From a virus, in the IMG/VR virus record IMGVR_UViG_3300040856_002405, positions 1 through 22,169 of that record: a stretch of 22,169 nt of DNA; one strand, given 5' to 3'. Position 1 is the first letter of the stretch; every line of letters begins with the position of its first letter. The notes beneath the pieces are model-generated. The model ran no database searches. It was not told the DNA's origin and saw only the letters and a program-made list of their open reading frames with translations. This document shows, piece after piece, positions 8,824 to 22,009 of the stretch. Made by a program: the position numbers and the translations under genes.

Positions 8824-9870
8824 ATGAGTGAATATAAGAAGACTGCACTTGTTCTTGGTGCTGGTGGGTTTATTGGAAGTCACATGGTAAAAAGACTTCG
8901 ATCAGAAGGATATTGGGTACGTGGAGTTGATCTCAAACGCCCTGAATTTTCACCTACTGAAGCAAATGAATTTATTCAAGGAGATCTGAGAGATCTTAAC
9001 TTTGTAGAAAGAGTTATTAGTTTCAAAGGTTATCTTGGAAACTTTTATCACTTTGTATCATCAAAGTATATTGATACTTTTGATGAAATCTATCAGTTTG
9101 CTGCTGACATGGGTGGAGCAGGATTTGTTTTCACTGGTGAAAATGATGCAGACATTATGCACAATTCTGCTACAATTAATCTAAATGTTCTTGAAGCACA
9201 GAGACAACTTAATGATTTTAAAGGAACAAGCAAAACTAAAATCTTCTATTCTGGATCTGCTTGCATGTATCCAGAACATAATCAACTAGATCCATATAAT
9301 CCAGATTGTCGTGAAGATTCTGCATATCCTGCAAACCCAGATTCGGAATATGGGTGGGAAAAACTTTTTTCGGAACGTCTTTATTTTGCCTATCATCGCA
9401 ATTATAATATTCCTGTTCGTGTTGCCAGATATCATAATATCTTTGGTCCCGAAGGTACATGGGATGGTGGAAGAGAAAAGGCACCAGCAGCAATCTGCCG
9501 TAAGGTAGCATATCTCCCAGAAGAAGGTGGAACTATTGATGTATGGGGTGATGGACTGCAAACACGTTCTTTCTTGTACATTGATGAATGTATTGAAGCA
9601 ACACGTAGACTGATGGATTCTGACTTCCAAGGTCCTGTTAATATTGGTTCTGAGGAAATGGTGACTATCAATCAACTTGTAGATACTGCTGCTAAAGTTT
9701 CTGGAAAGAACGTTGAGAAGAATCATATTGATGGTCCACTTGGAGTTCGTGGTCGTAATTCTAACAATGATCTTATTCGTGAAAAACTGGGTTGGGATTA
9801 TTCACAAACTCTTGAAGAAGGCATTCGCAAAACTTACAATTGGATCTCTGAACAAATCTCAAACAAATGA
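8824..9870 (+). CDS. GDP-mannose 3,5-epimerase-like enzyme (extended SDR)
   Basis: In plants this family converts GDP-D-mannose to GDP-L-galactose and GDP-L-gulose. The 348-residue protein has the NAD-binding GAGGFIG at 12-18, then AADMGGAGF (93-101), SGSACMYPE (143-151) with C147, YGWEK with Y176 and K180, GGREKAPAA (215-223) with K219, and WGDGLQTRSF (241-250). C147, Y176, K180 and K219 match the catalytic Cys, Tyr, Lys and Lys of the plant enzyme, and the whole central block is far closer to it than to generic epimerases. Residues about 65-85 look like an insertion relative to plant GME. No Shine-Dalgarno site precedes ATG 8824. First gene of the island, overlapping the next by ATGA. Confidence 0.85.
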   Translation: MSEYKKTALVLGAGGFIGSHMVKRLRSEGYWVRGVDLKRPEFSPTEANEFIQGDLRDLNFVERVISFKGYLGNFYHFVSSKYIDTFDEIYQFAADMGGAGFVFTGENDADIMHNSATINLNVLEAQRQLNDFKGTSKTKIFYSGSACMYPEHNQLDPYNPDCREDSAYPANPDSEYGWEKLFSERLYFAYHRNYNIPVRVARYHNIFGPEGTWDGGREKAPAAICRKVAYLPEEGGTIDVWGDGLQTRSFLYIDECIEATRRLMDSDFQGPVNIGSEEMVTINQLVDTAAKVSGKNVEKNHIDGPLGVRGRNSNNDLIREKLGWDYSQTLEEGIRKTYNWISEQISNK

Positions 9871-10181
9871 AAAGATATGTAATTGATTTAGATCATACTT
9901 TGTGCGATACAAAGAAAAATGAAGATGGTAGTTGGAATTATCTTCAGGCACTTCCTTATCAAGATAGAGTTGCAAAAGTAAATAAATTATCTGAAGATGG
10001 GAACTATATTATTATAGAGACTGCTCGCGGATTTTGGAAGAAGAGAAATTGGTATTGTGAAACATATGATCAACTTACTAGTTGGGGTCTTAAATTTCAT
10101 GAATTGAGAACAGGTGTAAAATTTGCTGCAGATTATTATATTGATGATAAAGCAATTAACAGCGAGGAATTTTTCAAATGA
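9867..10181 (+). CDS. HAD-superfamily phosphatase (capsule-locus type)
   Basis: A short 104-residue HAD protein. Motif I is DLDHT at 7-11 (nucleophile D7, acid/base D9), motif II is the Thr in ETARG (T52), and the C-terminal acidic motif is DYYIDDKA at 89-96. There is no cap domain, as in the small HAD phosphatases found in polysaccharide loci and in the sugar-phosphate phosphatase GmhB type. Likely substrate: a sugar phosphate or sugar bisphosphate made by this island. It is coupled to both neighbours by ATGA overlaps and pairs naturally with the kinase that follows. Confidence 0.8.
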   Translation: MKRYVIDLDHTLCDTKKNEDGSWNYLQALPYQDRVAKVNKLSEDGNYIIIETARGFWKKRNWYCETYDQLTSWGLKFHELRTGVKFAADYYIDDKAINSEEFFK

Positions 10182-11167
10182 CTAATGCAGATTATTTAAA
10201 ACAAGAAAGTGGTGGAAAAACTAAAGTTATTCTTGTAAGTAGAGTACATAAAGAAGCTGCAGATGAGCGGATGATGAAACTCGTTGATGAATATGAATTT
10301 ATCGAATCAATCCCGACAGAATTTAAAGAATATTTTCCTCGAATTGTTCTTTATGGAATAGAAGGTAATAAGGCATTCTATGAAATGGAGCATTACGATC
10401 TTCCTACTCTTCGTAGGTTGATGTTATCAAATGAAATTGAAGAAGATGAAGTTCTTTATTGGTGCGACAAGATTACTGAGTTGTCACGTAATCTTTATCT
10501 TCATGAGGTATTACCAATGCCAGATGATTACTTTGAAAAGATGCATTTTCAAAGACTTAACAATCGTTTAGATGAACTTGGTAAAAAGTCTGACTGGTTT
10601 AAAGAGTTGATTCAAAAAGAAACAGTTGTTGTTAATGAGAAAGAATACAAAAATATTCCTATCCTGGCAGAGAAATTTAAAAATATTAACTTCTTGAATA
10701 CAGTTAAACCAGAATTTGTTGGTAGATGGAGTCATTCTGATTTGCATTTTTCGAACGTTTTGATAGATCGCCAGAACGATAAATTTATTATGATTGATCC
10801 TCGTGGTTATGATTATTGTGATTATTATTATGATTACGGTAAGTTCTGGCATTCTGTGAATGGAAAGTATGAAATGATTGCTTCTCGTGAATTTGATTTA
10901 GATGGTAGCAATTTCCAACTCTGGAACAACCAGATGTACAATTTATGCGAATCGTTGAAGAAATCTATACCAAGTATCTTATTAAAACATTCTCCGGAAA
11001 GTCCTGAGGATGTAATGAGAAAAACAGAATGGAACGAAGTTATGCATTTCTCAAGTCTTCTTCCCTTTCTTTTGGATTTTGATGGAGTTGATGCCCGAAC
11101 AAAAGTTGCATACTATACTAGTGTTATTTTAATTAATGAATTTTGCGAAAAATATGAGATTAATTAA
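10178..11167 (+). CDS. Aminoglycoside phosphotransferase-like small-molecule kinase
   Basis: A 329-residue protein with the APH/choline-kinase catalytic loop: WSHSDLHFSNVLID, giving the catalytic D188 and N193, then MIDPRG with metal-binding D207. The N-lobe includes VILVSRVHKEAADERMMKL with a candidate ATP-binding Lys and FYEMEHYDLPTLRRL at the hinge. Such kinases in surface-sugar loci phosphorylate sugars or other small alcohols; real antibiotic resistance is unlikely here. It sits between a phosphatase and an aminotransferase and shares ATGA overlap with the former. The next start lies inside its end. Substrate unknown. Confidence 0.78.
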   Translation: MTNADYLKQESGGKTKVILVSRVHKEAADERMMKLVDEYEFIESIPTEFKEYFPRIVLYGIEGNKAFYEMEHYDLPTLRRLMLSNEIEEDEVLYWCDKITELSRNLYLHEVLPMPDDYFEKMHFQRLNNRLDELGKKSDWFKELIQKETVVVNEKEYKNIPILAEKFKNINFLNTVKPEFVGRWSHSDLHFSNVLIDRQNDKFIMIDPRGYDYCDYYYDYGKFWHSVNGKYEMIASREFDLDGSNFQLWNNQMYNLCESLKKSIPSILLKHSPESPEDVMRKTEWNEVMHFSSLLPFLLDFDGVDARTKVAYYTSVILINEFCEKYEIN

Positions 11168-12221
11168 TTGGGACGATCAGGATATTGGTGATGATGAGAT
11201 ATACGCAGCACTTGAATCACTAAAAAAAGGAGTTGGTGCCAAAGGTGATAATCTCATTCTTCTAGAAGAAGAGCTAAAGGAAAGATTGGGTTGTAAACAT
11301 GCAATACTTGTTTCTAATTGCACAACAGCATTGATTACATCTCTGATGGCTTTAAAACAAATATATCCTAATATCAAAAAAATTGCAGTTCCATCATTTA
11401 CTTTTATTGCCTCTGCTAATGCTGCAAAATTTGTATTAGATGACGTAGAATTAGTTGATTGTGGACTGGATGATTGGAATGTGAGACCTGAAGATATTCC
11501 ATCAGATGTCGATGCTGTAATGTTGGTTGATGTTGGTGGTATTCCTTGCGATTATGATAGATTTAAAGACCTAGGAGTTCATGTTATTGCAGACTCTGCC
11601 GAAAGTTTGGGATCAACTTATAAGGGAGAACAAATTGGAACTCAGGTAAGTCTTCATTGTTTTAGCTTTCAGCGTTCCAAAATAGTCACTTCAGGTGAGG
11701 GTGGCCTTATTACTACTAATGATGATAAAATAGCAAGTATCTGTAGGGCAATTGTTAATCATGGATATAGTGAAAATAAAAAATCTTATGAATATATCCA
11801 CGATAACTTTGGTTTGAATTTTAGAATGTGTGATGTTGAGGCATCTATACTCAGACAGCAACTTAAAAAACTAGACAAATATGTAGTTCGAAGAAATAAA
11901 GTAGCGAAGAGATATACGCAATTTTTATCTCAATACTATCAGGTACAACAAATTCCAAACTATTGTACGTCAAATTATTTTTTCTATGGAATACTTGTTG
12001 ATGAAGAAGTAAGAGATGAATTTGCTGAATATTTGATAGAAAAGGGAATAGTTGTAAAATGTTGGACTGCAATTCATCAACAAAAATTATGGGAGACTTC
12101 TGGACTTCCCAATGCAACTTCAATTTCAAATCGAGTTATTCTTCTTCCTATACATAATAAGATAACGGATGATGATGTTGATTACATTATCGAAACTTGC
12201 TTGCAATTTAATGAAAGATGA
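11154..12221 (+). CDS. DegT/DnrJ/EryC1/StrS-family sugar aminotransferase
   Basis: A PLP-dependent enzyme that adds an amino group to a keto-sugar nucleotide. It has 355 residues from ATG 11154. Visible motifs: VSNCTTAL near the N-terminus (phosphate cup), VPSFTFIASANA, ADSAESLGS (Asp to the PLP ring nitrogen), and SFQRSKIVTSGEGG with the Schiff-base lysine K176. ATG 11136 is also in frame but overlaps the previous gene by 32 bases; MRLINWDD is the usual type of start. The keto-sugar donor is not obvious: no separate dehydratase is seen, unless one SDR gene plays that part. Overlaps the next gene by ATGA. Confidence 0.88.
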   Translation: MRLINWDDQDIGDDEIYAALESLKKGVGAKGDNLILLEEELKERLGCKHAILVSNCTTALITSLMALKQIYPNIKKIAVPSFTFIASANAAKFVLDDVELVDCGLDDWNVRPEDIPSDVDAVMLVDVGGIPCDYDRFKDLGVHVIADSAESLGSTYKGEQIGTQVSLHCFSFQRSKIVTSGEGGLITTNDDKIASICRAIVNHGYSENKKSYEYIHDNFGLNFRMCDVEASILRQQLKKLDKYVVRRNKVAKRYTQFLSQYYQVQQIPNYCTSNYFFYGILVDEEVRDEFAEYLIEKGIVVKCWTAIHQQKLWETSGLPNATSISNRVILLPIHNKITDDDVDYIIETCLQFNER

Positions 12222-13429
12222 AAAAACTTTTTTATAAAATTTTTGATAAATTTACCTTCAATCAGTTACCCCATTTAAATTTCTTCATTGAGATGGAGAA
12301 AAAAACAATTGGAGAACTGAAAAACTTTCAATTTGAAAGACTTAAAGAAATTGCTTCTAAGTTTAATATAAGCATCCGTACCTGGGATGACTTTTATAAA
12401 CTACCTATCACTACAAAATCAGATTTGCCAGATCGACCTAATTTTCCTGATGAGGAAATGCGGCAGCATGAAACTTCTGGATCAACAGGTCAACCTAGAG
12501 TAATTTGGGTTCCTCCCTCCACCTGGTATAGGAAGGATGCTATTTTTACCCGTAGTTGGTTGAAAATGGGTAGAAAAGATGAATGGGTTTTTCGTTTGAT
12601 TTCTGGAGAACCCAAGTATCCATTTTATGATAGTCTTAGAAATGTTAAGGCTATGAATTATAAAACCCTGTCTCAAGATCATGTTGATTGGGTTGTTAAG
12701 CATAAACCATATCTTATTCATGGACCAGGCGGATCTATAAGACAACTGTGTGAAATGATTATCGATGCTGGACATGCTGATGTTCTTAAAGATATTAAGA
12801 TACATTGGTGCAGTGAAAGTTCTTATGGGCATAAAGAAAGACTTTTACCTTTAGTTAAAGAGTTTCATGAGCAATACGGACTTGCAGAACTTCCAACTGT
12901 AGGTGCTACCGATGGTATAGGAAATATTCGCGTTGTGATGGAACAGGGAATAGTTGAAATTGTAGATGAAAATGGAAATCCAGTTCCAGAGGGAGAAGAG
13001 GGATATATTGTAGTTACTGATTTTAATAATTACCAAACACCTATTTTTAGGTATCGTTGCGGTGATCGTGGCAAAATGAAAATGGTTGAAAGTGGTGGTA
13101 GACAATATTATGTTCTTTATGATATAATTGGAAGAGGAGTAGATTATTATAATGGACCTGAGGTTAAAAAGCCGATAGGTTGGTGGATAGTATCGCCAAT
13201 ATCACATACGGTGGGTGATGTAATTGAAAAGTGGAGATGTGAAGTTAATATTCCCAGAAAGACATTGATTCTCCATGTTAAATTTAAAGGTGATGAAAAC
13301 TTGAATGCATTAAAACCATATGCAGAATGGGTAAAAGAAAACGTTGGATTGAATACTGAATTTATGATTGCCGAAGAAGAAAAATATGACATCTATTGGA
13401 AAAATAAATTGGTGAGGGTTGTAAAATGA
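12218..13429 (+). CDS. CapK/PaaK-like adenylate-forming enzyme (ANL superfamily)
   Basis: A 403-residue protein resembling phenylacetate-CoA ligase and the CapK proteins of capsule loci. The ATP-binding loop is ETSGSTGQPR (85-94); a later signature VGATDGIGN (228-236) sits where other family members have YGxTE, with Asp for Glu; FRYRCGDRGK (277-286) has the ribose-binding Asp, and IIGRGVD (303-309) is the hinge. The ANL C-terminal domain follows. It probably activates a carboxylic acid as an acyl-adenylate, maybe to acylate an amino sugar made by the DegT enzyme. Such an enzyme is unusual in a phage. ATGA overlaps on both sides. Confidence 0.8.
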   Translation: MKKLFYKIFDKFTFNQLPHLNFFIEMEKKTIGELKNFQFERLKEIASKFNISIRTWDDFYKLPITTKSDLPDRPNFPDEEMRQHETSGSTGQPRVIWVPPSTWYRKDAIFTRSWLKMGRKDEWVFRLISGEPKYPFYDSLRNVKAMNYKTLSQDHVDWVVKHKPYLIHGPGGSIRQLCEMIIDAGHADVLKDIKIHWCSESSYGHKERLLPLVKEFHEQYGLAELPTVGATDGIGNIRVVMEQGIVEIVDENGNPVPEGEEGYIVVTDFNNYQTPIFRYRCGDRGKMKMVESGGRQYYVLYDIIGRGVDYYNGPEVKKPIGWWIVSPISHTVGDVIEKWRCEVNIPRKTLILHVKFKGDENLNALKPYAEWVKENVGLNTEFMIAEEEKYDIYWKNKLVRVVK

Positions 13430-14643
13430 ATGTAAGTTTTGTTGGACTTGGGAAGTTGGGACTTCCTTTAGCTTGTTGTTTGGTGCAATCTGGAAATAAA
13501 ATTCTGGGAGTTGATAAAAATGAATATGTCCTTGACATCTTAAACAAGGGAGAACTTCCTTTTTATGAACCAGGACTAAGTAATATTTTTCCACATGTAA
13601 ATTTTATTGGATTCACCGATTCTTATCAGAGAGCCATTGATGAAACTGATGTAACAATTATTCTTGTCAATACTCAACTTGGCGATAATGGATATTCTTC
13701 CGAATTTGTTGAAGATGTTTTGACCGACCTTTCTTTAAATCTCAAAAAAAGTAATAAAGAAAAGCATACGATTATCCTTTCATCTACAGTTCTTCCTGGA
13801 ACTATTAAAAAGTTAATCAAACTTGTTGAAAAAATTTCTGGTAGAAAATACGGAGAAGGGTTTGGCTTTTCATATGTGCCAGATTTTGTCAAGTTGGGAA
13901 GTGTGATTTATGACTTTAAAAATCCGGAGTTTTTCCTTGTAGGTGCGAATAATCAAGATGATATTGTTTTAACTCAAAGTATTTGGTACGAATTTCATCA
14001 AAATAATCCCCCAAAGAAAGTTCTAACTCTTGAAGAAGCTGAAATTTCTAAAGTAGCTTTGAATGCTTATATTGTTAATAAGATCACCTTTGCAAATTTT
14101 CTTGGACAACTTTGTGAAGGAATTGATAATGTAAATGTTCATAATATTACAAAAACTATAGGTATTGATAAAAGAATTTCTCCCCATTTCTTTGGATATG
14201 GAACACCTTATGGTGGAACTTGTTTTCCAAGAGATACTTCTGCTTTTATTAAATTTGCAAAAGATAGAAAAAAAAGAGCAAAAAATTTAATTTTTGCCGA
14301 AGAGGTAAATGAAATGGTTTATAAAAGTATTTTGGACAAGGTTAAATGCTATAAAAAAGTTGGAGTTCTTGGAATTTCATTTAAACCAAACTCTCCAGTT
14401 ACAATTGGATCTCCTTCAGCAAGATTGATTGGTGACTTGATTGATTGCGGATCTGAAGTTAATGGATATGATAGAATTAAAGAGACCTATCAAAATCTTG
14501 ATGCAGATATCAATCTATTTGAATCTGCTCAAGAATGTATACACAATTCTGATATTGTGGTTATTATGCATCCAGATTGTTATTTTTCAAATTTAGAATA
14601 TGGCAAAACAAATGTAATTGATTATTGGGGAGTATTAAAGTGA
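13426..14643 (+). CDS. UDP-glucose/GDP-mannose 6-dehydrogenase family
   Basis: An NAD-dependent enzyme that oxidises C6 of a nucleotide sugar to a uronic acid in two steps. The 405-residue protein has the Rossmann signature VGLGKLGLPLA at 6-16, the SSTVLPGT segment, the central-helix Lys/Asn segment (EISKVALNAYIVNKITFAN), and the catalytic-cysteine motif PYGGTCFPRD with C266. The C-terminal domain (GVLGISFKPNSP) binds the nucleotide sugar. UDP-glucose and GDP-mannose are both possible; the nearby GDP-mannose epimerase favours a GDP sugar, weakly. Coupled upstream by ATGA and downstream by GTGA overlap. Confidence 0.9.
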   Translation: MNVSFVGLGKLGLPLACCLVQSGNKILGVDKNEYVLDILNKGELPFYEPGLSNIFPHVNFIGFTDSYQRAIDETDVTIILVNTQLGDNGYSSEFVEDVLTDLSLNLKKSNKEKHTIILSSTVLPGTIKKLIKLVEKISGRKYGEGFGFSYVPDFVKLGSVIYDFKNPEFFLVGANNQDDIVLTQSIWYEFHQNNPPKKVLTLEEAEISKVALNAYIVNKITFANFLGQLCEGIDNVNVHNITKTIGIDKRISPHFFGYGTPYGGTCFPRDTSAFIKFAKDRKKRAKNLIFAEEVNEMVYKSILDKVKCYKKVGVLGISFKPNSPVTIGSPSARLIGDLIDCGSEVNGYDRIKETYQNLDADINLFESAQECIHNSDIVVIMHPDCYFSNLEYGKTNVIDYWGVLK

Positions 14644-15383
14644 ATTCTATTGTAAATACAGTTTTAAATGATTACCTAGATGAGAATGAAAAGATTGTAG
14701 TTCCTAAAGAACTTGATAGAGTGTTGATTGATATTGGAACTTCATACAATGCTCCACACTGTCAGGTATGGACTGAAGAAACAGAGGATGTTTGTGTATT
14801 TGCGTTTGAACCTAATCCTTTTAATATTGAGTGTATTAAATCTGGCAAATGGTTAAAATCGTCCTGGCAACATCCGTTGCAATTAAATCCAAAACAACTT
14901 GGAAAGAAGGTCTTTCTTGTAGAAACAGCACTTTCTGATTGTGAGCCTAGTTATTTGAATTTCTATTGTGCAGAGGAAGATCCCGGCACATCAAGTCTTT
15001 ATAAACCAACATATATTAAAGTTGAAAAAAATGTTGAAGTATCTGTGATTAGATTGAAAGATTTTTTTGATTTATTTCCATGGAATCAAATTCCTTTCAT
15101 TGAACATATTAAAATAGATGCTCAGTCTTCAGATTTTAGTATTGTTAAAGGCATGGGGGATTACTTAAAAAAAGTTTTATATTTAACTGTTGAATGCAAT
15201 ACTATTGATGACAATAACATTCGACAATATGAGAATCCAGATGAAAACCCCAATCAAATGAGAGAATATATTGAATCTTTTGGATTTGAATGTAAAAGGT
15301 GGAATGTGAATGGAGTCTTTTATAATAAAAATATGAAAGATCTTTGGGATGAATATGAGTATTACTTTTTGGAGAATGAATAA
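14640..15383 (+). CDS. FkbM-family methyltransferase
   Basis: A 247-residue SAM-dependent methyltransferase, likely O-methylating a sugar. Motif I is VLIDIGTSYNAP (28-39), the acidic loop is FAFEPNPFN (54-62), and IEHIKIDAQSSDFSIVKG (154-171) is the FkbM-type post-IV segment. The start is GTG 14640: a strong GGGGAG ribosome site at 14627-14632 lies seven bases upstream, and GTGA overlaps the stop of the preceding gene. A longer TTG start at 14625 would swallow that ribosome site. The next gene follows with no gap. Confidence 0.85.
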   Translation: MNSIVNTVLNDYLDENEKIVVPKELDRVLIDIGTSYNAPHCQVWTEETEDVCVFAFEPNPFNIECIKSGKWLKSSWQHPLQLNPKQLGKKVFLVETALSDCEPSYLNFYCAEEDPGTSSLYKPTYIKVEKNVEVSVIRLKDFFDLFPWNQIPFIEHIKIDAQSSDFSIVKGMGDYLKKVLYLTVECNTIDDNNIRQYENPDENPNQMREYIESFGFECKRWNVNGVFYNKNMKDLWDEYEYYFLENE

Positions 15384-16004
15384 ATGAAAGAAATTACTTC
15401 TAACTCTTACAGTTATCAAGATATTTTTGCTCTTCTGTGTTCAGATGAAAAGGGAACTGGTGGAAAATCTCCGGGAACATTTGTAGATATTGGATGTTAT
15501 GTTTCAAATATAACTTCTAATGTAAAAACTTTATTAGATTGTGGCTGGTCGGGAATTGGATTTGATATTAATCCTGATGTATTGCCTTCATGGGAACAAT
15601 ATGAAAATCAAATTGAGGTTTTTATATTGGACGTTGTTGAAAGTATTGATAAAGTTAATCAGGAAATATCTAAACTTCCCGAAGTCATTGATTACCTCAA
15701 TGTTGATATTGATGGATATCCATGCCAATATGCCATTGAAAATTTAGATTTAAGAAATAAAACATATAGATGCATTACGATTGAGCATGATGCATATAGA
15801 TTTGGTGATGTATATAAAAATGCACAACGAAAAGTTTTGGAACCACTTGGGTATGAGATAGTAATAAAAAATGCCGCAGAAGATTTTTATGTTAAACCAG
15901 AATTGATTAACGATAATTTTTTAAAAAACTTAAGGAGTGTCCCCAAAGATTATGTTCAATGTGATGCCAACCTCCATGAGATTCGTAAATATTTAAAATT
16001 TTAA
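15384..16004 (+). CDS. Methyltransferase-like protein, FkbM-related
   Basis: A 206-residue Rossmann-fold protein. GTFVDIGCYVSNITSN (31-46) is the SAM-binding loop, WSGIGFDINPD (55-65) the following acidic strand, DYLNVDIDGYP (103-113) and ITIEHDAYRF (131-140) the later FkbM-like segments. It is shorter than its neighbour and only distantly similar, so the pair is not a recent duplication. It probably methylates another position of the same glycan. It starts immediately after the previous stop and has low GC. Could also be a methyltransferase-like fold with altered activity. Confidence 0.72.
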   Translation: MKEITSNSYSYQDIFALLCSDEKGTGGKSPGTFVDIGCYVSNITSNVKTLLDCGWSGIGFDINPDVLPSWEQYENQIEVFILDVVESIDKVNQEISKLPEVIDYLNVDIDGYPCQYAIENLDLRNKTYRCITIEHDAYRFGDVYKNAQRKVLEPLGYEIVIKNAAEDFYVKPELINDNFLKNLRSVPKDYVQCDANLHEIRKYLKF

Positions 16005-16006
16005 TC

Positions 16007-16885
16007 ATGACCGTTTTTTTACAAACAAATACTGATGGATTTGATAAAGAAGGTATAGGTTCTGTTATTCAATGGAATTTACTTCTTTATGGAATTGCAA
16101 AAAAGTTACAAGTAAATTTTTCTTCTCATCCTTTTATTAATATATCACATTATCAATATAACAATATATCAAAACAAAAATGGAGCGAAGACTTTACAAA
16201 GTTTTTTAATCTTCCATGCCAACAGAATTTTGATATTGAATATATTTTTGATGGAGATTATCAAGATTTAGTAAACTTTATTCATGAAAATAAAGATAAT
16301 CAAAAAAATATTTCTGTTGAAGTCTCTAAAAACTTTCTAATAAAAGAAGCGTTTTCTTTGGTTGATGAATTTTTTGAAAATGAATATTTAAAAGAGATAA
16401 AAGAAAATCTTGTTTATAAAAAGAAGACATACTTCAATGATGGAGACTTTAACGTATGTCTCCACTTAAGGTCTCCAAATTCCTGCGATGTTCCCACATA
16501 TCCAGAAATGGAAACATATTTGATTTATAAAAATGCTGATGACATTAAAAATATATTTGACATTTTGAAACAAAGGTTATATGATAAAAAAGTCTGTGTC
16601 TATGTGTATTCGCAGGGAGATCAAAGCAGTTTTGTTGATTTATTAAAATTATCAGATAAGAATTTTGATGTTGTTCTAAAGTTAAATGAACATCCAATAG
16701 ATGACATTTATCATATGTCAAATGCTAATTTGTTGATTATGTCAAAGAGTTCTTATAGTTGGACTTCTCATCTATTAAATTTTAATCAAACAATTGTTAG
16801 AGATAATTTTTATCAACCCACTTATCCAAATAGGATATACTTAGACACGAATTACAAGTTTGATCCATCAGAATTAATACTATGA
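16007..16885 (+). CDS. Putative glycosyltransferase, GT11-like but divergent
   Basis: A 292-residue protein with no clear family match by eye. Its layout recalls the GT11 fucosyltransferases: VCLHLRSPNSCD (150-161) lies where GT11 has HxRRGD, VYSQGD (200-205) where GT11 has the CSDxxDW strand, and IDDIYHMSNANLLIMSKSSYSW (231-252) resembles the GT11 segment ending in SSxSWWGA. The two arginines of the donor-binding motif are reduced to one, so it may use another donor or be inactive. It is the most AT-rich gene in the window by eye. It overlaps the first true GT11 gene by ATGA. Confidence 0.55.
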   Translation: MTVFLQTNTDGFDKEGIGSVIQWNLLLYGIAKKLQVNFSSHPFINISHYQYNNISKQKWSEDFTKFFNLPCQQNFDIEYIFDGDYQDLVNFIHENKDNQKNISVEVSKNFLIKEAFSLVDEFFENEYLKEIKENLVYKKKTYFNDGDFNVCLHLRSPNSCDVPTYPEMETYLIYKNADDIKNIFDILKQRLYDKKVCVYVYSQGDQSSFVDLLKLSDKNFDVVLKLNEHPIDDIYHMSNANLLIMSKSSYSWTSHLLNFNQTIVRDNFYQPTYPNRIYLDTNYKFDPSELIL

Positions 16886-17805
16886 TTTCATACGATAGAC
16901 TAGGAAGTAATGGAAGACTGGGAAATCAAATGTTTCAGTATGCAGCTCTTCGCGGAATTGCTGCAAATCGTAAATTTGATTGGTGTATTCCAGATAAAAA
17001 TGTACCTTCATTGACAGATTATTGTGTTCAACTTCCATTTAAAATGCCTAATCTGAAGGAAAATAATATTGGTACGTTAAATTCAAATATAGGTTCTCAT
17101 CAAAGTCATAGTTTCAATTCTCTTGCAACATCAAACCCACAAGTCAAAAATAGAATTGAAAAGTCATTTGAGTTTGATGAAAAACTTTTTAATGAAGTAG
17201 AAGACAATACTAATATTGATGGATTTTTTCAGAGTGAAAAATACTTTAAGCATATTGAAAAAGAAATTCGTGAAGACTTTGAATTCATTGATGATATTCT
17301 AAAACCATGTCAAGAATTTATTTCACAATTTAATGATGTTATCTTTCTACACATTCGCAGAGGAGATGCACATGGATTTGAGCACCTATGTAAAAACAAA
17401 ACTTTTGATGAATACTACGCACCTGCCTTAGAACATTTCAGTGATGATGTATCTGTAATCGTATGTAGTGATGAGATTGACTGGTGTAAAGAACAAAAAT
17501 TCTTTAAAGATGAAAGGTTTTATCTTTCTGAAAATAATGAAAAATTTGAAAATAAATGTTGGTTATGGTTAGATGGTAATCCAGAATTTAGAAACTCGAC
17601 TATACCTTATACTGATTTGTGTTTGATGAGTCTATGTAATGGTGGAATTACAGCCACAAGTAGTTTGAGTTGGTGGGGTGCATGGTTGCAAAAAAATAGA
17701 ACTAATCCTATAATAGTTCCAGAGCCATGGTTTGGTCCAGAACTTATGAAAAGTAACAATACAAAAGATCTTATTCCCGATGATTGGATCAAACTTTCCT
17801 GTTAA
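16882..17805 (+). CDS. GT11 glycosyltransferase (alpha-1,2-fucosyltransferase family), copy 1
   Basis: A 307-residue inverting transferase. NGRLGNQMFQYA (10-21) is the N-terminal family signature, FLHIRRGD (155-162) binds GDP-L-fucose in known members, VCSDEIDWCKEQ (194-205) and SSLSWWGAWL (260-269) complete it. Known members add L-fucose from GDP-L-fucose to the 2-OH of galactose. There are no GDP-fucose genes here; the GDP-mannose 3,5-epimerase suggests GDP-L-galactose as donor, which is inference. It carries an extra segment of about 25 residues after 70, absent from copy 2. Overlaps its upstream neighbour by ATGA; 17 bases separate it from the GT6 gene. Confidence 0.92.
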   Translation: MISYDRLGSNGRLGNQMFQYAALRGIAANRKFDWCIPDKNVPSLTDYCVQLPFKMPNLKENNIGTLNSNIGSHQSHSFNSLATSNPQVKNRIEKSFEFDEKLFNEVEDNTNIDGFFQSEKYFKHIEKEIREDFEFIDDILKPCQEFISQFNDVIFLHIRRGDAHGFEHLCKNKTFDEYYAPALEHFSDDVSVIVCSDEIDWCKEQKFFKDERFYLSENNEKFENKCWLWLDGNPEFRNSTIPYTDLCLMSLCNGGITATSSLSWWGAWLQKNRTNPIIVPEPWFGPELMKSNNTKDLIPDDWIKLSC

Positions 17806-17822: not shown

Positions 17823-18554
17823 ATGAAAATTTGTGTAATTACAATTGCAACTGGAAGGTACATCCAGTTCGTAGAAAAACTTCTTGAGTCTATTGAGAAC
17901 AACTTTTTGGTTGGTCATGATATCAGTTGTCTCCTTTTCACCGATAATGACTTAGAAGAGACTTCTGATAATATTAAAGTCAGTAAGATTGAGCACAAAA
18001 CATGGCCCGAACCAGCACTTAAGAAGTATAACTATATTCACTCTGAGCGAGAATATCTCAAGCAGTTTGATTATACTTACTTGTTTGATGCTGATGTCTA
18101 CTTTGTGGACAAGGTTGCAGATGAGGTTCTTGAAGATCTGGTTGGTGTAATCCATCCATATAAGGTACTTGAGGATAAGTCTGTATATCCTTATGAAGCA
18201 AGGAAAGAGTCTACTGCTTATGTTCCTGATGCTGATAGAAGCAAGTACTATGCTGCTGCATTTGCTGGCGGTAAGTCTGAGAAGTTTTTAGAAATGGCAG
18301 AGACTATTTCTGCACGAGTCTCCGAAGATGAGAAGAATGGTATTGTTGCAGTGTGGCATGATGAAAGTCACCTGAACAAATACTTCAATGAGAATCCACC
18401 GAAGGATCTCTCTCCGAGTTACATGTTCCCTGAGGAACTGGTAAATCATCCAAACTATCCTTGGAAACCTAAACTGATTGCGGTCAATAAGGATGCTTTT
18501 GATACTTCATTCAATCAAGAGAAGCGGGAACTGAATCAATACGGCAATATTTGA
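17823..18554 (+). CDS. GT6 glycosyltransferase (histo-blood-group ABO family)
   Basis: A 243-residue retaining transferase. YLFDADVYFV contains the DxD metal motif (D89, D91); YYAAAFAGGKSEKFLEMAE (142-160) and GIVAVWHDESHLNKYF (173-188) with H179 and E181, then LSPSYMFPEE, follow closely the catalytic domain of vertebrate A/B transferases and alpha-1,3-galactosyltransferase. The N-terminal stem and membrane anchor of the animal enzymes are absent. From memory, bacterial members mostly replace DxD by NxN, whereas a cyanophage member keeps DxD; this one keeps it. The family adds Gal or GalNAc alpha-1,3, usually to a fucosylated galactose, which a GT11 enzyme next door would make. GC is visibly higher than in its upstream neighbours. 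Confidence 0.92.
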   Translation: MKICVITIATGRYIQFVEKLLESIENNFLVGHDISCLLFTDNDLEETSDNIKVSKIEHKTWPEPALKKYNYIHSEREYLKQFDYTYLFDADVYFVDKVADEVLEDLVGVIHPYKVLEDKSVYPYEARKESTAYVPDADRSKYYAAAFAGGKSEKFLEMAETISARVSEDEKNGIVAVWHDESHLNKYFNENPPKDLSPSYMFPEELVNHPNYPWKPKLIAVNKDAFDTSFNQEKRELNQYGNI

Positions 18555-18555
18555 T

Positions 18556-19272
18556 ATGAAAATAAACCTGAGAAATTTAAATACCTACTACATCAATCTT
18601 GATGAGAAGGAAGAAAGAAGAAGATCTGTTGAATATACGTTGAACAGACTTAACTTTTCTTCTGTGACTAGAGTTTCTGGTGTTAGTTGTGATGATGGTA
18701 AAGTTGGATGTGCCAGATCTCAACATAAAGTTTTGTCTGATGCTTCAATCCAAACTCCATTCTTGTTGATGGAGGATGATTGTTTGTTCACTGGCAACTC
18801 TGACTTTGAGATTGAAGTCCCTGATGATGCTGATGCTCTGTTTATTGGAGTTTCTCAGTGGGCTAGGTATTTGAATTTCTCTGGTCCATTTCTGCACTAT
18901 AGAAAAGTTGATGATAAAGTAGTCCAGGTGTATAATATGCTATCTGGTCATGCTGTAATTTATCTCACCGAAGAGTATCGTCAAGTTTGTTCTCGTATAT
19001 CCAAGTATTGTGGTTATCAACTTCTTGACCACATGGACAATGGGTATGCAGAGATACAAAAATACTATAGTGTATACTCATTAGACATGCCAATCTTCAA
19101 ACAGAATGGACATAATGGTGGAGTGACTTCAACTAGAATTACAGAAATGGGAATGGATATTTCTCAGGCAGATAAGTTTTTTGATAGTGTTAAATACAAT
19201 TTAGGTAGTCTTCAGGGAGTTCCTGACCTGAACAATTGCCCAAGCACTTATTATCCATCTAAACTTGTTTAA
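18556..19272 (+). CDS. GT25-family glycosyltransferase, copy 1
   Basis: A 238-residue protein. TYYINLDEKEERRRS (10-24) is the GT25 opening, VGCARSQHKVL (50-60) is the second motif, and FLLMEDDCLF (69-78) has the metal-binding acidic cluster. The family includes LPS galactosyltransferases such as LgtB/Lob1 types and collagen galactosyltransferases. It starts one base after the GT6 stop. It probably adds one residue to the same glycan; donor unknown. Only about 30% of it looks alignable by eye to the second GT25 gene, so the two are old paralogs or separate imports. Confidence 0.82.
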   Translation: MKINLRNLNTYYINLDEKEERRRSVEYTLNRLNFSSVTRVSGVSCDDGKVGCARSQHKVLSDASIQTPFLLMEDDCLFTGNSDFEIEVPDDADALFIGVSQWARYLNFSGPFLHYRKVDDKVVQVYNMLSGHAVIYLTEEYRQVCSRISKYCGYQLLDHMDNGYAEIQKYYSVYSLDMPIFKQNGHNGGVTSTRITEMGMDISQADKFFDSVKYNLGSLQGVPDLNNCPSTYYPSKLV

Positions 19273-19274
19273 TT

Positions 19275-19526
19275 ATGATTAGAAGATTGAGGATCGAACT
19301 TTGGTATGTTGTTGCAGAATTGGAATATATCCTTTACCCATGGAAAGATGGAGACCGTCCATCCGCAGAAACAATATCCAAATACAATCTTCCAGAAGAA
19401 AGTTATGATGATCGTCTTTATTACTATGATTGGATAAAAAGTCAAGACCAAAAAATACAAAAGATAGAAGAAGACATTATCTTTCTAATTAATAGGATCA
19501 ATAAAATTGAGGAAATTCACAAATGA
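19275..19526 (+). CDS. Small hypothetical protein with C-terminal coiled coil
   Basis: An 83-residue protein placed between a GT25 and an SDR gene. Aromatic and charged N-terminal part (RIELWYVVAELEYILYPW), a Tyr-rich middle, and a C-terminal coiled coil (QKIQKIEEDIIFLINRINKI). It begins two bases after the previous stop and overlaps the next gene by ATGA. It may be an adaptor or oligomerisation partner of one of the neighbouring enzymes; nothing in the sequence gives a function. Confidence 0.65.
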   Translation: MIRRLRIELWYVVAELEYILYPWKDGDRPSAETISKYNLPEESYDDRLYYYDWIKSQDQKIQKIEEDIIFLINRINKIEEIHK

Positions 19527-20374
19527 AAATTGCAGTGTTGGGTTCTGGTGGTCAGATCGGTGCCTATCTAACAGAGTATTTACGTAACAAAGGACACAAG
19601 ATTCATGAGTTTGATGTTGTCAATGGAGAGCATCAAGACTTAACTACGATTCCAAATCCAGAACTTCATCGTGTGATTATGGATTCTGACTTTGTTTTCT
19701 TCCTTGCATTTGATGTAGGTGGATCACGATACCTTAAGAAGTATCAGCATACCTTTGACTTCATTAATAACAATACGCGGATAATGGCAAATGTATTTGA
19801 TTATTTAAAAAAATATAATAAGAGATTTGTATTTGCATCATCTCAGATGAGTAACATGAGCTATTCACCATATGGTGTTATGAAGAGAGTTGGTGAAATG
19901 TATACTAAAACTCTTAATGGACTGACTGTTAAATTTTGGAATGTCTATGGTATTGAGAAAGACCATGAAAAGGCACATGTTATCACCGACTTTATCCGTA
20001 GAGGGTTTGAGGAAGGTGAGTTTGAGATGTTAACTGATGGCACTGAAGAACGACAGTTTCTATATGCTGAAGATTGTTGCGAAGCACTTGAAACTGTCAT
20101 GGATAATTATACTGACTTTAAACCTGAAGATCCTCTTCATATTACTTCTTTTAGATCTACATCAATCAAAGAGATTGCATCAATAATTCAAGGATGTTTT
20201 AATAGAATTGGCAAGTATGATGTAAGAATCAAACCTGGATTGGCAAAAGATAGTGTTCAGTTAGATAAAAGAAACGAAGCAGATGCATATATTACTGGGT
20301 GGTGGTTGCCAAAAACATCTATAGATAATGGGATTGCAAAAGTATTTGAGGAAATGAAAGGTGATTGGGTTTAA
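19523..20374 (+). CDS. NAD-dependent epimerase/dehydratase (extended SDR)
   Basis: A 283-residue nucleotide-sugar SDR. GSGGQIGAYL (7-16) is the NAD-binding loop, FASSQMSN (104-111) holds the active-site serine, and SPYGVMKRVGE (115-125) gives catalytic Y117 and K121. WNVYG and ERQFLYAEDCCEAL are usual extended-SDR segments. It is more diverged from known families than the 8824 epimerase, so epimerase, 4,6-dehydratase and reductase are all possible. If a dehydratase, it would supply the keto-sugar needed by the DegT enzyme. It overlaps the second GT11 gene by 14 bases. Confidence 0.82.
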   Translation: MKIAVLGSGGQIGAYLTEYLRNKGHKIHEFDVVNGEHQDLTTIPNPELHRVIMDSDFVFFLAFDVGGSRYLKKYQHTFDFINNNTRIMANVFDYLKKYNKRFVFASSQMSNMSYSPYGVMKRVGEMYTKTLNGLTVKFWNVYGIEKDHEKAHVITDFIRRGFEEGEFEMLTDGTEERQFLYAEDCCEALETVMDNYTDFKPEDPLHITSFRSTSIKEIASIIQGCFNRIGKYDVRIKPGLAKDSVQLDKRNEADAYITGWWLPKTSIDNGIAKVFEEMKGDWV

Positions 20375-21212
20375 TCATATCGGAACTATTGGAAGATTTG
20401 GTAATCAAATGTTTCAGTATGCAGCATTGAAGGGAATTGCTGCAAATAGGGGATTTGAATATGCAATTCCTCCTAAAGATTTTAAGATACAAATTGACAA
20501 TTATGGATTATTGGATGCCTTTAATCTAGATACAAATAAAAATGTTGACTGGGTTATTGCTACTGAAGTTGTACAAGAAAGTCATTTTCATTTTGATGAA
20601 AAACTTTTCAACGAATGTCCAGATGATTCGACTATCTATGGATTCTTTCAGTCTGAAAAATATTTTAAACACGTTGAGGAAGATATTCGTAAAGACTTTA
20701 CTTTTAAAGATAACTGGTTAAACCCTTGCAAAGAGTTTAGGGAACAACTAGGCGAAGAGGTTATTTTCCTTCATGTGCGTCGAGGAGATCCTAACCTTGC
20801 AGACAAGAGAGGATTTAAGTGGGCATATGTAAATATACAATCACAACATCCAGTACAAACTCTTGAGTATTATGAGAAGGCACTTGCAGAGTTTAATGAT
20901 GATTTACCGGTTGTAGTATTTTCTGATTCTATAGATTGGTGTAAGGAACAAGATATATTTAAATCTGATAGGTTTATGTTCTCCGAACCAGAAGATAAAC
21001 ATTCTGATGGAGCATTAGTTCCTTATCTTGATATGTGTTTAATGTCTTTATGTGATCATGCAATCATTGCTAACAGTTCCATGTCTTGGTGGGGTGCATG
21101 GTTAATTAAAAATCCAAACAAAAAAGTCATAGCACCATCTATGTGGTTTGGATCAGATTATGCAGATAAAGATACTAAAGATTTGTATTGTGAGGGGTGG
21201 AAAGTAATCTAA
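20361..21212 (+). CDS. GT11 glycosyltransferase (alpha-1,2-fucosyltransferase family), copy 2
   Basis: A 283-residue paralog of the 16882 gene. It has IGRFGNQMFQYA (10-21), FLHVRRGD (136-143), FSDSIDWCKEQ (187-197) and NSSMSWWGAWL (238-248). Shared stretches with copy 1 such as AALxGIAANR and GFFQSEKYFKHxE suggest one ancestral gene duplicated within the phage lineage. Copy 2 lacks the extra segment after residue 70. The start is GTG 20361, with GAGGAAA upstream and an N-terminus that aligns with copy 1. The role is likely a second L-sugar addition with a different acceptor. Confidence 0.92.
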   Translation: MIGFNHIGTIGRFGNQMFQYAALKGIAANRGFEYAIPPKDFKIQIDNYGLLDAFNLDTNKNVDWVIATEVVQESHFHFDEKLFNECPDDSTIYGFFQSEKYFKHVEEDIRKDFTFKDNWLNPCKEFREQLGEEVIFLHVRRGDPNLADKRGFKWAYVNIQSQHPVQTLEYYEKALAEFNDDLPVVVFSDSIDWCKEQDIFKSDRFMFSEPEDKHSDGALVPYLDMCLMSLCDHAIIANSSMSWWGAWLIKNPNKKVIAPSMWFGSDYADKDTKDLYCEGWKVI

Positions 21213-22009
21213 TGGATAAAAACAAAGCAGCATATAAACTTGAAAACTTTGGACCCATATACTATTTAAATCTTGATGGGCAACCTGAAAGAAAGGAGTA
21301 TATGGAAAATCAGTTTGACTATTGGAAAATTGAAAATTATACTCGTATCTCTGCTTATGATGGTAGAGATGATGATCTAAGTGAAATTATTAAAGGAACT
21401 TATCCTGAAAATATGACCACTGGTGAGATTGGATGTGTCACTTCACACTTGAAAGCAATTAAAAATTGGTATGAGACTTCGGATAGTCCGTATGCGGTTA
21501 TCATGGAGGATGATTGCGATTTAGACATTGTTAAATGTTGGAACTTTACTTGGAAAGATTTTGTTGCAAGGGCTCCTTATGCATGGGATGTTCTGCAACT
21601 TGCTATTATTTGTACTGGTAATATTATTGTTCCAATACACAATCGTTTTGTGAATGATTTTTCTACCGCTTGTTATGTCATTACTCGTCATCATGCGGAA
21701 AAATTAATTCGCAATCATGTAAGAGGAGAAAAATATAAACTTGATAATGGAGTCAGACCAAGAGCAGTTGCTGATGACTTGATTTATAATTCTGGAGTAA
21801 CTTATTCTTCTCCAATTCTTCTTTACAAAATTGCTTTGGGATCTTCTATTCATCCTGATCATGTTGATGTATTTCATAGGAATAGTTACAATGGTATTTT
21901 AAACTTTTGGAAAACCCAAGGATCTGAATTGACTTTGGATCAAATTACTTCATATAATCCTTATTTGGGTAGAATTTCAGAAGGAGAAAAACCAAAAGAA
22001 GAATCTTGA
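21212..22009 (+). CDS. GT25-family glycosyltransferase, copy 2
   Basis: A 265-residue protein. PIYYLNLDGQPERKEYM (15-31), TGEIGCVTSHLKAIKNW (70-86) and AVIMEDDCDLD (95-105) are the three GT25 motifs, better preserved than in copy 1. ADDLIYN and the tail are typical of the longer family members. ATG 21212 starts inside the previous stop (TAATG); an in-frame GTG at 21197 is less likely. It is the last gene of the island. Donor and acceptor unknown; LPS-type galactosyl transfer is the closest known role. Confidence 0.85.
   Translation: MDKNKAAYKLENFGPIYYLNLDGQPERKEYMENQFDYWKIENYTRISAYDGRDDDLSEIIKGTYPENMTTGEIGCVTSHLKAIKNWYETSDSPYAVIMEDDCDLDIVKCWNFTWKDFVARAPYAWDVLQLAIICTGNIIVPIHNRFVNDFSTACYVITRHHAEKLIRNHVRGEKYKLDNGVRPRAVADDLIYNSGVTYSSPILLYKIALGSSIHPDHVDVFHRNSYNGILNFWKTQGSELTLDQITSYNPYLGRISEGEKPKEES

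Follow-up and report, generated by a model that had tools for sequence, protein, structure and literature searches.

A DxD-type family 6 glycosyltransferase encoded next to a GT11 gene in a T4-like cyanophage fragment

Introduction

The gene at positions 17823–18554 of a viral DNA stretch raises the question of what an enzyme resembling the human blood-group A/B transferases would do in a phage, and from where it came. The window, i.e., the whole stretch of 22,169 nucleotides analyzed here, stems from an IMG/VR virus contig and is a 22 kb fragment of a marine, T4-like cyanophage: its NrdA and NrdB match phage families (PHROG), the latter with 86% identity to NrdB of Synechococcus phage Bellamy, and eight tRNAs are present. 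An initial sequence-only reading had recognized the gene as a phage member of glycosyltransferase family 6 (GT6) that keeps the DxD motif, with a cyanophage precedent for this motif; the phage setting, the family, and the precedent, which is P-SSM2, were all borne out. GT6 genes are indeed already known from P-SSM2-type cyanophages, those of Prochlorococcus phages P-SSM2 and P-SSM5 being annotated as "glycosyltransferase family 6", and two cyanophages are mentioned in the GT6 literature (PMC3961637). A more informative feature had been missed: a GT11 gene, GT11a, is the next gene upstream, with a gap of 17 bp between its stop and the GT6 start.

Fold and catalytic residues of the window GT6

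The protein is confirmed as a GT6 glycosyltransferase. It matches the Pfam profile PF03414 (Glyco_transf_6) with an E-value of 2.1e-40 and a score of 138.9 bits, the cut-off being 25, and PHROG 3317 (glycosyltransferase) with an E-value of 3e-67; the cut-off of NCBIfam NF041524 (Gltr_6) is missed (201.4 bits vs 250). In phmmer searches against solved structures, human ABO transferase chains (E ~1e-35) and Bacteroides ovatus BoGT6a (E 1e-33) were retrieved, in agreement with the likeness to A/B transferases first noticed in the blocks WHDESHLNKY (residues 178–187) and YYAAAFAGG (residues 142–150). The gene and its main motifs are as follows:

17823–18554, plus strand: GT6 glycosyltransferase, 243 aa, complete ORF with an ATG start
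18087–18095, plus strand: DAD motif, residues 89–91, aligned with human D211-V212-D213 and BoGT6a N95-A96-N97
18252–18260, plus strand: Ala144-Ala145-Ala146, aligned with the donor-specificity tripeptide 266–268 of the human A/B transferase
18354–18365, plus strand: WHDE, residues 178–181, including Glu181, equivalent to GTB Glu303 and BoGT6a Glu192
18489–18491, plus strand: Lys223, candidate equivalent of BoGT6a Lys231 and bovine a3GT Lys359, in a nearly invariant column

The AlphaFold model (55-sequence; mean pLDDT 92.6, pTM 0.90) displays the GT-A fold of the solved GT6 enzymes: the top listed Foldseek matches in the PDB are human GTA/GTB, BoGT6a, and bovine a3GT, with TM scores up to 0.90 and an rmsd of 1.5. 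The window protein shares with human GTA/GTB the fold (TM ~0.8), the DxD motif, the catalytic Glu, and the His233 equivalent. It differs from them by an identity of only ~32%, another tripeptide, a Pro in place of Thr245, and its reduction to the catalytic domain alone, no stem or membrane anchor being seen. BoGT6a is similar in size and fold (rmsd 1.5–1.7) and is likewise a soluble catalytic domain.

The alignment bears out the DAD motif at residues 89–91, which is predicted to bind the metal and UDP. The Glu, Trp, His, and Asp at the catalytic positions of GTB and BoGT6a are conserved, the Glu181 column throughout alignment A2, and His111 aligns with GTB H233 and BoGT6a H122. The lysine of which Lys223 is the candidate equivalent has a role toward the UDP leaving group in BoGT6a and bovine a3GT (PMC3961637). 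The window GT6 is predicted to be a retaining enzyme that takes Gal or GalNAc from a UDP-sugar and attaches it in α-1,3 linkage.

Donor, acceptor, and metal

The AAA tripeptide is confined to the window GT6 and 17 close viral relatives, AGG being present in most other phage members, and it lies outside the known A/B donor tripeptides LGG, AGG, MGA, and GGA. The tripeptide is not a strict guide: Forssman synthase carries GlyGlyAla, yet uses a GalNAc donor. On the human A transferase scaffold, HisAlaAla or MetGlyAla confers B-type (Gal) and AlaGlyGly A-type (GalNAc) activity (PMC6351642). Since AAA is not in that set, its occurrence in the window's phage clade, which suggests UDP-Gal rather than UDP-GalNAc, is a lead to the donor and not a result.

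Among the acceptor contacts of GTB and BoGT6a, His111, Trp178, His179, Asp180, and Glu181 are kept. Thr245 of GTB (Thr134 of BoGT6a) is replaced by Pro123, position 235 is occupied by Tyr113, and Asn69 and Thr70 of BoGT6a correspond to Pro64 and Ala65. Because of Pro123, the protein is filed here as a GT6 and not as an A/B transferase, and is regarded only as working like one. The same residues are relevant to an alternative, in which the GT6 would use a fucose-free galactoside or HexNAc (α-Gal/Forssman type) and the GT11 would be just another enzyme of the cluster. AAA is nearest to the HisAlaAla of bovine a3GT, which needs no fucose, and the Thr245 equivalent is unconserved; His111, the counterpart of GTB His233, speaks against this alternative, as a3GT has Gln there.

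The metal requirement can be approached by comparison. BoGT6a, with NAN (NxN type), is metal-independent, whereas the DxD-type GT6 of Parachlamydia requires Mg2+ or Mn2+ (PMC3961637). Given this contrast and its DAD motif, the window GT6 is probably Mn2+/Mg2+-dependent.

Distribution of the DxD motif and phylogeny of GT6

In the alignment, DxD is present in the window and in all 85 IMG/VR viral rows. In the phage-record collection it is carried by 16 of 18 rows, the other two having NAN and being unverified faecal contigs. The early statement that bacterial GT6 carry NxN covers part of the picture, 50 of the 81 bacterial rows sampled being N-type; as a rule for all bacteria it is ruled out by the other 31, which have DxD and belong to Dependentiae/Babeliales, Chlamydiae, Moorena, Arenibaculum, and others. 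As these rows come from the best 80 of 226 loci retrieved with a phage-derived profile, the fraction is biased toward DxD; that such bacteria are numerous is unaffected by this. Two such bacterial members were known by 2014 (PMC3961637).

Further members were observed in other settings. Two uncultured phages of ~640 kb (L024 and L025) carry a DxD-type GT6, with a GT11-like gene 4 kb away in one of them. A 958-aa environmental protein of Megaviridae (BFVD A0A5J6VM96) matches the window GT6 model with a TM of 0.85 and 32% identity, indicating that GT6 is also present in giant viruses. In Akkermansia (L053:1310-5953), a 756-aa Galactosyl_T/methyltransferase/GT11 protein is followed by one of 786 aa whose C-terminal domain is a GT6 with the motif NGT.

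In a maximum-likelihood GT6 tree of 85 rows, with the motif columns excluded, a branch with support 100/99 divides the family into two halves. The first holds the window's clade A (with P-SSM2), vertebrates, Dependentiae, Chlamydiae, Moorena, two marine cyanobacteria, and two megaphages; the second holds all N-type bacteria together with phage clade B (S-CAM9, Bellamy, and others), which has DAD. Phage clade A and the window's own subclade are each supported at 100/100, so that the local placement of the window GT6 in the phage clade is firm. As to whether it might nest within the NxN enzymes, the best tree places it outside them, in the DxD half, although a forced NxN grouping is unrejected (AU p 0.375). 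A single N-type clade (p 0.44) and a single origin of clades A and B (AU p 0.32) are also unrejected constraints, the best tree suggesting two phage origins, and one or two D/N state changes are needed. Sisterhood of clade A and vertebrates is unsupported, though unrejected (AU p 0.549). A quick initial tree (115 rows) proved unreliable, being beaten by a constrained tree by 51 log units, and smaller careful trees were therefore used instead.

The resemblance of the motif blocks to vertebrate A/B enzymes could mean that the phage recently took up a GT6 gene from an animal or an ordinary gut bacterium. We consider this extremely improbable: the vertebrates are set apart by a long branch of their own, and the phage clade, besides its full support, is old and diverse (66–98% identity among the nearest contigs, 52% to P-SSM2). 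The composition of the gene, moreover, equals that of the phage's own core genes, with a GC3 of 0.365 for GT6, 0.344 for nrdA, and 0.374 for nrdB, vs 0.18–0.26 for the genes at 8824–17805. The compositional contrast that had been taken as a sign of separate acquisition is thus real, but the deviating genes are those upstream, and a foreign composition of GT6 is ruled out.

A close host origin was rejected as well. In the family of cyanobacterium G334, a GT6 match was found in just 3 of 400 sampled genomes, one of them broken up (G697); the two intact genes share 37–43% identity with phage clade A and fall outside it, in a group with a betaproteobacterial gene. These two, in the small-genome cyanobacteria G334 (L276:8242-8997) and G667 (L275:8276-9028), are of the DAD type and have no GT11 within ~8 kb; that of G334 adjoins a secA-like reading frame. 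In five IMG/VR contigs (L123, L153, L154, L167, and L168), a clade A GT6 gene is accompanied by a second one related to clade B; in L167 and L168 the two lie back to back.

The glycan gene cluster

The window GT6 is surrounded by other sugar genes:

8824–9870, plus strand: GDP-mannose 3,5-epimerase-like (phmmer to Arabidopsis GME 2c59, E 1.1e-85; next family E ~1e-24)
16007–16885, plus strand: possible divergent fucosyltransferase-like protein, weak (GT11 HMM E 1.6e-5; Pfam GT11 E 0.011, below cut-off)
16882–17805, plus strand: GT11a, α-1,2-fucosyltransferase family (PF01531 E 9.6e-17, 61.6 bits vs 23.9; HIRRGD at 157)
18556–19272, plus strand: uncharacterised protein, possibly GT25-like, next after GT6 (PHROG 24091, unknown, E 2.6e-85; GT25 E 0.14)
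19523–20374, plus strand: NAD-dependent nucleotide-sugar epimerase (PF01370 E 1.7e-26)
20361–21212, plus strand: GT11b, a second GT11 gene (PF01531 E 6.9e-22; HVRRGD at 138)
21197–22009, plus strand: GT25 glycosyltransferase (PF01755 E 1.4e-13)

The AT-rich block at 8824–17805 also encodes a DegT aminotransferase, a UDP-glucose dehydrogenase, a weak AMP-binding-like protein, and an FkbM methyltransferase, and looks like a recently acquired glycan island. The order nrdA-nrdB-tRNA-GME is common to Bellamy (L030) and the window, with a clade B GT6 in the former and a clade A GT6 in the latter; the GT6 slot in such phages seems to hold either type.

Glycosyltransferases, the FkbM methyltransferase, and sugar-nucleotide enzymes are present in the 22 kb window together with no annotated flippase or polymerase. 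This would suit a cluster whose sugars are attached to the tail fibres or capsid of the phage itself and not to the host lipopolysaccharide, and giant algal (chlorella) viruses do glycosylate their own virions with their own glycosyltransferases. In a fragment of only 22 kb the absence of a flippase means little, and the field usually reads such genes as host surface modification (PMC9602691). Virion decoration, which is compatible with either reading of the enzyme, is a real possibility that stays short of probable.

Coupling of GT6 to GT11

The GT11a model (pLDDT 92.3) resembles GDP-fucose fucosyltransferases in fold searches (FUT8, POFUT1, plant FUT1, and NodZ; TM ~0.5), and phmmer against PDB sequences gave no useful match for GT11a. 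An α-1,2 linkage from GDP-fucose is predicted for it from its family, which also includes other linkages, e.g., the α-1,3 of Helicobacter hepaticus (PMC4202792), and GT11a is predicted to make the GT6 acceptor.

A GT11 gene directly precedes GT6 in S-CAM9, S-8S55, S-PRM1, B23, DSL-LC02, DSL-LC03, Bellamy, and SynMITS9220M01, and lies several genes away within the cluster in P-SSM2. GT11 is present on 39 of the 40 GT6-bearing viral records checked. For the neighbour counts, GT6 genes more than 75% identical were merged, and expected values were obtained by placing GT11 at random among the locus genes. GT11 was the immediate neighbour of GT6 in 9 of 18 viral loci vs 2.4 expected, with a p of 0.0002 that is optimistic, since each locus is counted once but the viral lineages are related. 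In bacterial loci the count was 25 vs 9.1 expected (none of 100,000 draws reached 25), to which two fusions are added. These GT6-GT11 fusion ORFs (Pfam) come from two bacterial phyla, in a Hoeflea MAG (L076:5650-7593) and a Planctomycetota MAG (L104:6001-7632), and group together in the GT6 tree, so that they may represent a single event. On supported branches of the GT11 tree, at least 8 changes of the GT6-adjacent state are seen among viral genes. A single GT11 is all that many of the bacterial genomes have; in Moorena (8.3 Mb) it is located 44 bp from GT6. Taken from the side of GT11, the association is narrower: GT6 lies within 4 kb of 5 of 80 viral GT11 loci, all contigs of the window's own GT6 group, and the other 75 are without it. 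In one locus (L116:4315-6004), a tandem pair of GT11 genes from different phage lineages was seen directly before GT6.

These data also weigh on the fucose-free acceptor. A nearby GT11 accompanies only 8 of 30 DxD bacterial genes vs 35 of 47 NxN genes; the DxD relatives in Dependentiae and Chlamydiae are mostly without one, and so are the two marine cyanobacterial genes described above, as would suit an enzyme independent of fucose. On the other side, GT11-GT6 adjacency exceeds what cluster membership would predict, fusions exist in two phyla, and GT11 is nearly constant on the viral records. We hold a fucose-free acceptor to be rather doubtful. Gene linkage and the fusions support the predicted action of GT6 after GT11.

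Sugar supply

The window contains GDP-mannose 3,5-epimerase, GT11, and GT6 genes together. In S-CAM9, S-8S55, S-PRM1, Bellamy, and SynMITS9220M01, these three genes follow one another in that order with overlaps of a few bases, suggesting that they are translationally coupled in those five phages. The product of 8824–9870 would supply GDP-L-galactose. Other phages have GMD and GDP-fucose synthase instead of the epimerase, a split by which GT11 may, in some lineages, use GDP-L-galactose as its donor. Cyanophage S-SCSM1 has GMD, GDP-fucose synthase, GDP-mannose 3,5-epimerase, and an α-1,2-fucosyltransferase, with no link to GT6 in the passages considered here (PMC9602691). A bolder scheme would see in these genes a portable cyanophage cassette for GDP-sugar, GT11, and GT6, building an ABH-like end with L-galactose in place of fucose and switching by lineage between GalNAc (AGG) and Gal (AAA) in a human A/B-like manner; we judge it unlikely.

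Discussion

We favor, with somewhat more confidence than doubt, a reading in which the window GT6 is a metal-dependent retaining α-1,3-Gal(NAc) transferase that caps an H-like glycan made by GT11. From the computed family, fold, motif, and GT11 coupling, we infer the order of the steps, the donor, the acceptor, the metal need, and the destination of the glycan. The soluble DxD-type GT6 would belong to a surface-glycan cluster of the T4-like cyanophage. GT11 would first attach an α-1,2-linked L-fucose, or L-galactose, to a galactoside; GT6, as a retaining enzyme, would then place Gal or GalNAc in α-1,3 linkage on that galactose. The product would be an A/B-antigen-like terminal group, added during infection to the virion or to a glycan of the host surface.

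Comparison with known systems shows how much of this arrangement is shared. P-SSM2 is like the window in its clade A, DxD-type GT6, in a GT11 upstream, and in a nucleotide-sugar epimerase followed downstream by a GT25 that forms the end of the cluster. It differs by AGG instead of AAA, by a GT11 that is two genes off instead of adjacent, and by GMD and GDP-fucose synthase instead of GDP-mannose 3,5-epimerase. In the clade B phages S-CAM9, S-PRM1, Bellamy, and SynMITS9220M01, a DxD GT6 also directly follows GT11, but it is only 32–36% identical to that of the window, forms a separate clade that goes with the NxN enzymes in the tree, and carries the tripeptide QGC in S-CAM9 and Bellamy. In E. 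coli O86, a GT11 and the GT6 WbnI together produce blood group B (PMC4202792). The window would follow the same logic of GT11 then GT6; the O86 pair is unlike it in belonging to an enterobacterial O-antigen cluster and in the NxN assigned to bacterial enzymes (PMC4202792).

What appears to be new is that GT6 pairs with GT11 again and again in phages as well as in bacteria, that fusions of the two exist, how widely DxD is spread among bacteria, and the AAA variant; in the literature searched, which covered part of the relevant GT6 and cyanophage papers, no link of phage GT6 to GT11 was found. The evolutionary picture of the family is thereby changed, as in the best tree the DxD enzymes form one well-supported half that is common to vertebrates, one phage clade, megaphages, Dependentiae, Chlamydiae, and some cyanobacteria. 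The change from AGG to AAA within one phage clade offers a clean case for donor switching. The cyanophage GT6 had previously been an isolated curiosity, and the GT11 pairing makes its job testable through a concrete biochemical prediction: a two-step synthesis in which an H-type structure would be followed by A/B-like capping. A fucose-adding enzyme paired with an ABO-type transferase is also how animals and gut bacteria make blood-group sugars in two steps.
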